Positions 19,404-22,204 of a DNA stretch of 64,000 nt are shown here, in pieces. The notes below the pieces were generated by a model. It ran no database searches, was not told the origin of the DNA, and worked only from the letters and a program-made list of their open reading frames with translations. Every line of letters begins with the position of its first letter. Position 1 is the first letter of the stretch. The translations under genes were made by a program, and so were the position numbers. The stretch is from Mycolicibacterium rhodesiae (GTDB lineage: Bacteria; Actinomycetota; Actinomycetes; Mycobacteriales; Mycobacteriaceae): assembly GCF_002086695.1 (NCBI RefSeq), contig NZ_MVIH01000004.1, positions 372,001-436,000 of the forward strand, in the 5' to 3' direction.

Positions 19404-20036
19404 ATGAAGATTGCCCCCACCAAGACCGTCGGCCTCGTCGGCGCAGCCCTGCTCGTGGGCGTCGCCGCAGTCGGCTGTGGTAGCGACGACAAGGGGTCCG
19501 AATCGTCGTCGTCATCGTCGTCCGCCGCGTCGAGCTCCGCCACCTCGTCGGCCGCCGCATCGGAGACCACCAGCGCCGCCGCCGCCCCGGCCGGTGACTA
19601 CAGCAAACTGCTGCTGAAGGCCTCTGACATCGATCCGAGCTTCGTGGCCAGCGATCCGCAGATCAATCCCAATGGTCTGAACGGCGTCGTCCAGTCGATG
19701 ACGAACCCCGGCAAGAACGAAACCATCGTCTTCGCGATCGTGGTGAGCGAGGATGCCGCCGGCGCTCTCAAGGCCTTGGACTCCGCGAAGGCCGAGCTGC
19801 CCAAGGAAGTTGACGGCGCACCGAAGCCCGCCGATGTCGGCGACGGGGGCAACGGCATCATCGCCACCGGCAAGTCACCGGACGGCACGAAGGCGATCAC
19901 CGAGGTGTACTTCACCCAGGGCAAGTCGCTGGTGAACATCGAATTCTCCAGTGAGCCCAACGATCCCGTGCTGGACGAGACCGCGCTGGCCATCGCCAAG
20001 ATGCAGGACACCCAGGTCAAGAACAACCTGACCTAA
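19404..20036 (+). CDS. Small secreted lipoprotein, Ser/Ala-rich linker
   Basis: A 210-residue probable lipoprotein. The signal peptide ends in lipobox AAVGC with the lipidated Cys25; start 19404 follows an AAAGGA ribosome site. A serine/alanine/threonine linker (about 33-65) leads to a globular domain of about 145 residues starting GDYSKLLLKASDIDPSFV. This resembles mycobacterial cell-envelope lipoproteins of unknown function. It occupies the place where M. tuberculosis carries a PPE gene between the chsH3 and ltp2 loci. A 163-bp upstream gap contains no gene. Confidence 0.8.
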   Translation: MKIAPTKTVGLVGAALLVGVAAVGCGSDDKGSESSSSSSSAASSSATSSAAASETTSAAAAPAGDYSKLLLKASDIDPSFVASDPQINPNGLNGVVQSMTNPGKNETIVFAIVVSEDAAGALKALDSAKAELPKEVDGAPKPADVGDGGNGIIATGKSPDGTKAITEVYFTQGKSLVNIEFSSEPNDPVLDETALAIAKMQDTQVKNNLT

Positions 20037-20047
20037 AGCTCGAAGCT

Positions 20048-20108
20048 CGACAGTAACGCCACGGCGGGAGATCCACGGATGCTCCGCCGTGGCGTTACTG
20101 TCGGCGCG
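20048..20108. repeat. 61-bp hairpin repeat, copy 1 (downstream side of the DUF559 gene)
   Basis: Left arm CGACAGTAACGCCACGGCGG (20048-20067) and right arm CCGCCGTGGCGTTACTGTCG (20084-20103) are perfect 20-bp reverse complements around a 16-nt loop, followed by GCGCG. A second 61-bp copy at 20972-21032 matches at 53 of 61 positions by eye. The TAA stop of the DUF559 gene lies inside the right arm. It could act as a terminator between convergent genes, but the duplication suggests more. Confidence 0.85.
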
Positions 20109-20937
20109 CCAAAGCCGCTGCCACTCGGCGCCTGACGGTGCCCGCAGTGTCCTCAGACGTGAAACGTACGACGAGCCAACCCAATTCGGCGAGGTCTTCA
20201 AAGCGACGAATGTCCCTGTCGCGCTGGCGACGATCAACGCGGTGGTGGGCGCCTTCGTATTCGAACGCGATCTTGAGGTCTTCATAACCCATATCGAGCT
20301 CGGCGATCAAAACGCCGTACTCGTTGCGCACCGGAATCTGGGTTTGCGGTCTGGGGAAACCGGCCCGAACTATCACCAGCCGCAGCCATGTCTCCCTGGG
20401 TGATTCCGCGCCCGGGTCGACCAGGTCGAGAGCGGCACGGGCTCGGACGATTCCTCGCCGGCCTTGATGGCGCTCTGCCAAGAGCTCGATGTCGGCAACC
20501 TTCAGGCGCGTCGCACGTGCCAACGCGTCGACAGCCGCAATCGCCATGTCCGTCGGATACCAGCACAACAGGTCCAGGGCGGTCCGGGTCGGGACCGTGA
20601 CGACCATGCCTTCGCGCCGGCAGATCTCGTCGGCCTCGATACTGCAGCCGCGCGCACGCACACCTTGGGTCGCCCGGTGGTTGGTGTCGGCGATCTCCGC
20701 GGGTCGTCTCTTGTCGATCCATCTGGCGCCGTGGACAGCAGACGCCGAGAACCCGACGAGCACGCCCCGTCTGCGCGATCGCAACCAGCAGGCCTTGGCC
20801 CGCAGCACCGGACTGAGCTCGGTGCCCACCGGGATGTAGATGTCCTGATGGATCGCGCGGAACTTGGTTCGCAGTTCGTGGCGCGTCAGGCGGCAGCCTG
20901 CGAGCGCTTCACTCCCGACGAACGGCTCATCCTCCAT
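20095..20937 (-). CDS. DUF559 / Vsr-like putative endonuclease with N-terminal AbiEi-type winged helix
   Basis: A 280-residue two-domain protein. The N-terminal part (about 1-130) resembles the AbiEi-type winged-helix and linker region seen in actinobacterial 'type IV TA' proteins. The C-terminal part (about 175-275) fits a restriction-endonuclease-like DUF559 core, with E182 (SPRETW), D215 (AELDMGY), E226/E228 (FEYEGAHH) and H231/H232 as possible active-site residues. It is bracketed by two 61-bp hairpin repeats, one of which contains its stop codon. Members are abundant in mycobacteria and their role (defence, repair or mobility) is unproven. Confidence 0.78.
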   Translation of the reverse strand: MEDEPFVGSEALAGCRLTRHELRTKFRAIHQDIYIPVGTELSPVLRAKACWLRSRRRGVLVGFSASAVHGARWIDKRRPAEIADTNHRATQGVRARGCSIEADEICRREGMVVTVPTRTALDLLCWYPTDMAIAAVDALARATRLKVADIELLAERHQGRRGIVRARAALDLVDPGAESPRETWLRLVIVRAGFPRPQTQIPVRNEYGVLIAELDMGYEDLKIAFEYEGAHHRVDRRQRDRDIRRFEDLAELGWLVVRFTSEDTAGTVRRRVAAALARRQ

Positions 20938-20971
20938 GCCCGGAGTGTGCCGCCGCCCACCGACAAGACCA

Positions 20972-21032
20972 CGACAGTAACGCCACGGCGGCAGATCAAC
21001 CGATTGCTCGCCCTGGCGTTACTGTCGGCGCG
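20972..21032. repeat. 61-bp hairpin repeat, copy 2 (upstream side of the DUF559 gene)
   Basis: The left arm CGACAGTAACGCCACGGCGG is identical to copy 1, and the last 19 bases TGGCGTTACTGTCGGCGCG are also identical. The centre differs (8 mismatches in 61), so only the outer 14 bases pair perfectly here. It lies 34 bases upstream of the DUF559 start and five bases before the ltp2 stop codon, in the same orientation as copy 1. Confidence 0.85.
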
Positions 21033-21037
21033 AAACC

Positions 21038-22204
21038 CTAGCCCAGGATGATGCCCGACGTCGGGACGCCGGTGCCTGCGGTGACGAGCACGTGCTCGAC
21101 GTTGTCCACCTGGTTCACCGACGTGCCGCGCAGCTGGCGCACACCTTCGGCGATGCCGTTCATGCCGTGGATGTAGGCCTCGCCGAGCTGACCGCCGTGG
21201 GTGTTGATCGGCAGCCGTCCGCCGATCTCCAGCGCACCGTCCTTGACGAAGTCCTTGGCGTCACCCGGCTCGCAGAAACCCAACTCCTCCAACTGAATCA
21301 ACGTGAAGGGGGTGAAGTGGTCGTAGAGGATCGCGGTCTGGATGTCGGCCGGCGTCAGCCCCGACTGCGCCCACATCTGCTTGCCAACCAGACCCATCTC
21401 GGGCAGCCCGAGTTCGGGCCGGTAGTAGCTCGTCATGGAGTACTGATTCGGGCTCGACCCCTGCGCGGCCGCCTCGATGATGGCCGGCCGGTGCTTGAGA
21501 TCCTTGGCACGCTCGGCCGAGACGATCACCAGGGCGACACCACCATCGGTCTCCTGGCAGCAGTCCAGCAGCCGCAGCGGCTCGGCGATCCACCGCGAAT
21601 TCTGGTGATCCTCGATGGTGATCGGCTTTTCGTAGAAGTACGCCTTCGGATTATTGGCCGCATGCTTACGGTCCGCGACCGACACGGCGCCGAAATCACG
21701 GCTGGTCGCACCGGAGTAGTGCATGTAACGCTGGGCGATCATCGCGACCTGCGCGGCCGGCGTCGAGAGCCCGTGCGGGTATGAGAACGAGTTGTCCACG
21801 CCGGTGGAGTCCGCGTTCTCGACCAGCCGCATCTGCACCTGACCGAACCGCATGCCGGAGCGTTCATTGAAAGCCCGATATGCCACAACGCAATCCGCGA
21901 CACCGGTGGCCACCGCGATCGCCGCCTGCTGGACGGTGGCACATGCCGCACCGCCGCCGTGGTGGATCTTGGAGAAGAACTTCAGATCGCCGATACCGGT
22001 GGCCCGCGCGATGGCGACCTCGGTGTTGGAGTCCATCGTGAACGTGGTCATACCGTCGACGTCGGCGGGAGTCAGACCCGCGTCGTCGAGGGCGTCCAGC
22101 ACGGCCTCCGAGGCCAGCCGCAACTCACTGCGGCCGGAGTTCTTCGAGAAGTCGGTGGCGCCGATGCCGACGATCGCGGCCTTGCCGCTCAGTTCGCCCG
22201 GCAT
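21038..22204 (-). CDS. ltp2: Ltp2, steroid side-chain retro-aldolase (thiolase fold)
   Basis: A 388-residue thiolase-fold protein that, with the DUF35 domain of ChsH2, cleaves 17-hydroxy-3-oxo-4-pregnene-20-carboxyl-CoA to androstenedione and propionyl-CoA. GGGAACATVQQAAIAVATG and the NTHGGQLGEAYIHGMNG region are family features, whereas the normal thiolase C-terminal cysteine is absent, consistent with aldolase rather than thiolase chemistry. Its ATG overlaps the chsH1 stop by one base. It ends the operon cyp125-chsE1-chsE2-chsH2-chsH1-ltp2. Confidence 0.93.
   Translation of the reverse strand: MPGELSGKAAIVGIGATDFSKNSGRSELRLASEAVLDALDDAGLTPADVDGMTTFTMDSNTEVAIARATGIGDLKFFSKIHHGGGAACATVQQAAIAVATGVADCVVAYRAFNERSGMRFGQVQMRLVENADSTGVDNSFSYPHGLSTPAAQVAMIAQRYMHYSGATSRDFGAVSVADRKHAANNPKAYFYEKPITIEDHQNSRWIAEPLRLLDCCQETDGGVALVIVSAERAKDLKHRPAIIEAAAQGSSPNQYSMTSYYRPELGLPEMGLVGKQMWAQSGLTPADIQTAILYDHFTPFTLIQLEELGFCEPGDAKDFVKDGALEIGGRLPINTHGGQLGEAYIHGMNGIAEGVRQLRGTSVNQVDNVEHVLVTAGTGVPTSGIILG

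Follow-up and report, generated by a model that had tools for sequence, protein, structure and literature searches.

DUF559 proteins form a nuclease family found in most Actinomycetes genomes tested, usually with several members per genome, and no role has been accepted for them. One such gene in the window (a 64,000-nucleotide stretch of Mycolicibacterium rhodesiae DNA) lies between two hairpin-forming repeats, which raises the question of whether gene and repeats form a single unit and whether that unit moves.

The window locus and its predicted nuclease

The unit, hereafter the cassette, runs from palindrome to palindrome (20048..21032, no strand assigned, ~985 bp). Copy 1 of the palindrome (20048..20108, unstranded; a 56-bp palindrome at 20048-20103 followed by a GGCGC tail) forms the lipoprotein-side end and holds the stop codon of the nuclease gene, while copy 2 (20972..21032, unstranded; a 56-bp palindrome at 20972-21027 plus tail) forms the thiolase-side end, ~35-90 bp upstream of the nuclease gene start. 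These limits were inferred from a swap between sister species, from solitary and empty sites, and from the points at which homology ends at unrelated sites, all described below. The insertion site is flanked by a putative lipoprotein gene without a Pfam family (19404..20036, plus strand) and a thiolase-family gene (21038..22204, minus strand), each with its 3' end toward the cassette. The two repeats are direct, 61 bp each, identical at 53 of 61 positions (87%), and 924 bp apart from start to start. Copy 1 pairs perfectly over a 20-bp stem around a loop of 16 nt; the stem of copy 2, 19 bp long with a loop of 18, contains one mismatch beyond the outer 14 bp. As single-stranded DNA they fold with z scores of -7.6 (copy 1) and -6.9 (copy 2), and none of 200 shuffles was equally stable. 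A preliminary description, made from sequence alone, had reported two 61-bp repeats in the same orientation, 53/61 identical and 924 bp apart, bracketing a DUF559 gene, with a perfect 20-bp hairpin in copy 1 and the end and stop of the gene inside that copy. All of this held; its statement that only the outer 14 bp of copy 2 pair was slightly too strict.

The nuclease gene (DUF559/MTES_1575; 20095..20937, minus strand, 843 bp) encodes 280 amino acids, and the right arm of copy 1 contains its final codons (..R-R-Q-stop), including the TAA stop. In Pfam the protein matched MTES_1575 (E=1.9e-5) and, less strongly, DUF559 (E=6.5e-4), each under the gathering score (for DUF559, 20.0 bits vs 20.6); of 11 diverse homologues, 11 matched MTES_1575 and 10 matched DUF559. 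Overall, the Pfam scans returned solely MTES_1575, DUF559, AbiEi_1 and one weak HTH_21, and no transposase family was found in the Pfam or NCBIfam scans. PADLOC AbiEi models matched residues 16-155 (E=1.2e-6). AlphaFold (AF2) run with 54 homologues gave a model with a pLDDT of 94 and a pTM of 0.89; the single-sequence model (pLDDT 34) was discarded. Foldseek matched the catalytic domain of I-Bth0305I (PDB 3r3p; prob 1.00, TM 0.78 of target) and showed a weak resemblance to Rv2827c, an AbiEi-like antitoxin (1zel; prob 0.99, TM 0.40), although the E-values against the PDB were weak (9e-3 and 0.1), and 3r3p was also the sole, weak match in a PDB sequence search (E 0.22). In the 54 homologues E182 and D215 never vary, and H232 and D242 are each kept in at least 90%, which is the EDxHD pattern. 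The protein is thus predicted by the model to have two domains, an AbiEi-like N-terminal half and an EDxHD/Vsr-type nuclease C-terminal domain. A review (PMC3943268) gives nearly 60 bp as the length of the target on which I-Bth0305I dimerises, and the palindromes at DUF559 loci are of about that length.

Palindromes across the genome and at other DUF559 loci

The sequence AGTAACGCCANNGCG occurs seven times in the 6.0-Mb genome, every time inside such a hairpin: four of them make up the arms of the window palindromes, and the remaining three lie one each in three solitary hairpins elsewhere. Since it is confined to such hairpins genome-wide, the window palindromes are not a product of chance. 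A covariance model built from these five palindromes (two window copies, three solitary) detected about five solitary copies of the window family in the genome (C12:439729, C1:182073, C3:178864, C3:18662 and C49:249468), its weaker matches being other palindrome families, and four relatives contained similar numbers. None of the solitary copies adjoins a DUF559 gene, and 7 of the 9 solitary sites examined lie between convergent genes. An early reading, based on these solo copies, that the hairpins are unrelated to DUF559 was overturned by the paired palindromes found at homologues in other species. With the window covariance model, many of these homologues showed palindromes on both sides at a spacing of ~920 bp. 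A sequence-blind hairpin finder likewise placed palindromes on both sides of the DUF559 paralogues of the source genome, with quite different sequences (beginning CGAGCGTGCGAGTT at L067, CGAGTTTCACTTTTGGC at L073, GCAGACACAAACTCGGGCG at L075 and GCAGACGCAAAGG at L076). The palindromes at DUF559 loci are generally ~55-65 bp long, alike left and right within an element and unlike between elements.

A search 200 bp to each side of 103 Mycobacterium loci gave palindromes with a score >=11 upstream of 54%, downstream of 58% and on either side of 79%, compared with 2.7% of control windows; raising the score to >=12 gave 45% and 50% (upstream and downstream) vs 0.4%. A set of 76 named-species loci, partly from the same genomes as the 103, gave 58% upstream, 66% downstream and 83% either, with controls at 1.9%. 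At 25 lipoprotein loci, which served as a control gene family, the figures were 0%/8% and the median alignment score was 20. The upstream and downstream palindromes of the 103 loci aligned with a median score of 51, whereas mismatched pairs reached 33 at their 95th percentile; the 95th percentile was preferred because the 99th percentile of control scores in this test was inflated by overlapping or syntenic control windows. Matched palindromes were also found at 23 loci outside the genus, in other Actinomycetes (median 60; cross-pair 95th percentile 27), and the nuclease family was found in 114 of 148 Actinomycetes genomes and 70 of 81 genera. Because the association of DUF559 with palindromes is seen across these samples, it is class-wide and old. 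Genomes carry 2-19 paralogues (61 genomes). As to placement, 90 of 134 classified loci sit in convergent 3' gaps and 39 have a 5' end on the upstream side. As a side observation, the family was absent from whole groups of the 148-genome sample (among them most g22 genomes, of family f19, and all listed g29 ones, of f26), and other genomes of the sample held up to 12-15 copies.

When syntenic homologues were compared, the left and right palindromes within a genome scored a median of 60 and 64 in two groups, while left palindromes compared between species scored 22 and 23 (permutation p about 2e-4). The left and right palindromes therefore evolve in concert. Across 184 elements, palindrome similarity climbed with nuclease identity along the same curve at same and different sites: 20 (same site) and 19 (other site) at 45-55% identity, which is background, 35 and 34 at 65-75%, and 50 and 44.5 at 75-85%. 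As this curve tracks nuclease identity irrespective of site, it is the strongest sign of cognate pairing, and we consider it very likely that the gene and both palindromes are one unit in which each nuclease lineage has its own palindrome.

Several smaller observations concern intergenic palindromes. The convergent gap between serB and a MocR gene holds a window-family palindrome in the source genome (L050, G000:C1:182073; compared with L197-L200), a different hairpin with the loop ACTCGCACTT in G024 and G004, and a third (CGATTTCGGCGCGCAAACG) in G044 and G018, which indicates rapid turnover of intergenic palindromes. At L060 (G000:C45:223737) a near-perfect 55-bp palindrome (beginning CACAACGCAATCAGGGCGAGAGATC) lies between convergent genes, and no nuclease partner for it was identified in the source genome. 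Both window copies also gave matches to the Rfam family Ms_IGR-8, a Mycobacterium sRNA (20040-20120 and 20979-21041, minus strand), at 28-30 bits against a gathering score of 44, with no match for the three solitary hairpins tested. This match was treated as chance because the stem sequences differ; it remains possible that Ms_IGR-8 is itself such a palindrome.

Site history and movement of the cassette

The window site was surveyed in the thirty nearest species. Some carry window-type cassettes with nucleases 72-89% identical; G294, G319, G429, G466 and the truncated G315 have a nuclease only ~50% identical with unrelated palindromes; G310 and G535 have other cassette types; G044, G327 and G009 have solitary palindromes; and G039 has an empty junction. 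In G044 the orthologous neighbours are 65 bp apart, with a single palindrome and no gene between them. With G018 added, the thiolase tree (31 rows) required at least 10 state changes at the site, and the sister pairs G024/G294, G432/G044, G327/G315 and G429/G456 differ. G024 and G294 have almost the same flanks, as far as the outermost ~10 bp of the palindromes (CGCCGAGCGT...ACGCTCGGCG), whereas inside the cassette identity is roughly 35-70% per 50-bp window throughout, recovering beyond it. The second cassette type of G429 and G466 adjoins a clipped window-type palindrome. Homology at unrelated sites has the same limits: L138 and L154 (81% protein identity) match from palindrome outer end to outer end, ~1.0 kb, and then the match stops, and L119 and L292 (79% protein identity) match over ~1.0 kb, again from outer end to outer end. 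At the solitary-palindrome site L047, G004 has an empty overlap of convergent genes and G024 a different palindrome family. A decaying cassette was noted downstream of the thiolase gene in G315 (L342), in which only nuclease residues 159-272 find a match, flanked by palindromes that can still be recognised.

Comparison thus shows that the unit has been swapped, has been lost (sometimes leaving one palindrome) and is present at unrelated sites. It lies mainly in convergent 3' gaps, for which it has a preference or in which it survives. Swaps at one site could also be plain homologous exchange of flanking genes between strains. In the nuclease tree most locus groups come out as monophyletic, which indicates that movement is rare, while the thiolase site requires at least 4 changes. 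Given the long vertical inheritance of most loci, "mobile" here means occasionally so. The family was found in 7 of 72,556 plasmid records and 1 of 50,697 phage records. No target-site duplication was established by comparing filled and empty sites, whose flanks are too diverged; CTAG was considered as a duplication, but convergent TAG stops produce CTAG themselves and confound it.

The preliminary description had proposed a mobile or self-maintaining cassette of a REP-like element and a nuclease, or a nuclease system that recognises the hairpin. The former is supported by comparison, with mobility that is occasional, on the evidence of matched palindromes at most DUF559 loci, similarity that tracks the nuclease, solo and empty sites, an exact swap and palindrome-to-palindrome homology. 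As for the latter, cognate pairing is supported; binding or cutting, and the way of moving, are not shown. Two observations had been named that would refute the proposal, and taken together the outcome is mixed but leans in its favour. For one, repeats occurring widely without a DUF559 association, the genome has about five solo copies of the window family; the other, the absence of any empty site in relatives, does not apply, as empty sites exist.

Explanations of the cassette and its relation to known systems

Our preferred reading is that the locus is likely a ~1-kb single-gene selfish cassette, consisting of a two-domain nuclease flanked by two ~56-62-bp palindromes of its own, with recognition inferred. 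That the palindrome is the substrate of the nuclease is likewise likely but inferred, without binding or cleavage data. In the proposed mechanism, a dimer of the protein would bind the palindrome and nick or cut it, either as duplex or as a hairpin during replication; repair of the break may then copy the cassette, or the palindrome alone, into sites with the palindrome or a similar sequence; and repair between copies would homogenise left, right and perhaps solitary palindromes. Repair of a cut palindrome from its partner would explain the concerted evolution of the two ends. The inference that spread occurs by such homing or break repair rather than by cut-and-paste transposition could go either way, and cut-and-paste transposition remains possible and is not excluded. 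Some points count against the cassette model: two intact target palindromes adjoin the gene, so that avoidance of self-cutting needs explaining, movement is rare, solitary copies are few, and the family is nearly absent from plasmids and phages.

One rival explanation treats the palindromes as operators through which an AbiEi-like DNA-binding protein (a regulator or a relative of toxin-antitoxin antitoxins) controls its own gene; protein and operator coevolve, and nothing is mobile. The match of the N-terminal half to AbiEi models and Rv2827c (1zel) favours this, as does the upstream palindrome, which at ~35-90 bp before the start is in operator position, and operator-regulator coevolution would itself yield similarity that tracks nuclease identity. 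However, an equivalent palindrome covers the stop codon at the 3' end, the solitary ones sit mainly (7/9) where convergent genes end rather than at promoters, entire units are exchanged and are also found at unrelated sites, and the nuclease residues are conserved; we regard this explanation as unlikely. A domesticated host system also seems unlikely, one in which the nuclease does housekeeping (mismatch or hairpin processing) at dispersed palindromes under vertical selection with occasional exchange. Its support comes from several loci that persist vertically for long, from several paralogues per genome (2-19 in 61 genomes), from conserved catalytic residues, from the near absence of the family from plasmids and phages, and from the precedent of Caulobacter VsrA, for which a Vsr-like repair role is proposed (PMC12907096). 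Against it, sequence and presence turn over fast between sister species, G315 carries a truncated nuclease copy, and one genome holds many different specificities.

Least credible, and in our judgement very unlikely, is the explanation that the palindromes are ordinary (bidirectional) terminators or REP-like 3'-end hairpins that adjoin these genes by coincidence. The hairpins are indeed strong and mostly at convergent 3' ends, and the serB-site gap of relatives holds other, unrelated hairpins. However, the stems are not followed by a T-run, upstream copies are present where no gene ends toward them (the 39 of 134 classified loci with an upstream 5' end), generic terminators would neither match left to right nor track nuclease identity, and the control gene family is largely without palindromes (0%/8%).

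Among known systems, REP/RAYT (TnpA_REP) is similar in its layout of one gene between palindromes belonging to its own family that also stand alone, in the intergenic, mostly 3'-end position of the solitary palindromes, and in a lineage-specific pairing of enzyme and palindrome with mostly vertical inheritance. The defining enzyme differs, being an HUH Y1 transposase in REP/RAYT and PD-(D/E)XK-like EDxHD/Vsr in the cassette, and since the Pfam scans gave no HUH Y1 family and the predicted fold is EDxHD/Vsr-like, the cassette fails this test. The cassette palindromes are also longer (~55-65 bp vs 20-40 bp for REPs), and solitary copies of the window family are present but few (~5), far fewer than those of classical REPs. 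The GTAG/CGTC tag, a criterion for REPs (PMC3733652), was absent near the foot of either window copy (plus strand, by eye, window family only). The EDxHD homing endonuclease I-Bth0305I (PDB 3r3p) shares the predicted nuclease fold and the catalytic residue pattern, but the cassette gene is not intron- or intein-borne and carries an AbiEi-like half, and whereas homing genes of this type interrupt their target in filled alleles or lie in an intron of it, the cassette gene sits between two whole putative-target palindromes. The N-terminal half weakly resembles the AbiEi antitoxins of AbiE type IV toxin-antitoxin systems; unlike in AbiE, no AbiEii toxin adjoins (the neighbours being the putative lipoprotein and thiolase-family genes), and the AbiEi-like half is fused to a nuclease with palindromes on both sides. 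Vsr and Caulobacter VsrA (DUF559) share the nuclease superfamily and the DUF559 domain. VsrA causes a DNA-damage response upon loss of a cytosine methylase, with a proposed Vsr-like repair role (PMC12907096); in contrast to the cassette it is tied to cytosine methylation and SOS, and bracketing palindromes are not described in the passage of that paper on it. Insertion sequences and MITEs share terminal inverted repeats, non-autonomous solitary ends and movement as a unit, but the cassette has no known transposase, each of its ends is a long palindrome, and no target-site duplication was established.

We found no prior description of a DUF559 palindrome cassette in the open-access literature searched; within that literature the cassette may be undescribed so far and may be a class of its own. 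A bolder reading, which we hold as no surer than a coin toss, is that it belongs to a mobile-element class that is new and common among Actinomycetes. In this reading the nuclease would move a ~1-kb unit by acting on coevolving ~60-bp palindromic ends, as an analogue of REP/RAYT that uses an unrelated enzyme and has many specificities side by side in a genome. The pairing of nuclease and palindrome provides a large orphan nuclease family with a substrate that can be tested, would account for the solitary palindromes between mycobacterial genes, and yields natural pairs of nuclease and target that evolve together; should the nucleases turn out to recognise ~60-bp sites specifically, they would also add to the sources of nucleases with long sites.

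Two further observations concern the architecture of the palindromes. In one nuclease clade (loci L115, L117, L121-L127, L131, L135 and L136) each end consists of two tandem ~26-bp palindromes (e.g. CGAGTGTGCGGCTAGCCGCACACTCG) and not of one long one. The otherwise different palindromes of L065, L069, L058, L061, L197 and L198 have in common a loop motif similar to AAAGTGCGAGTAA or to the complement of this sequence, which suggests that loop and stem may be recognised separately.
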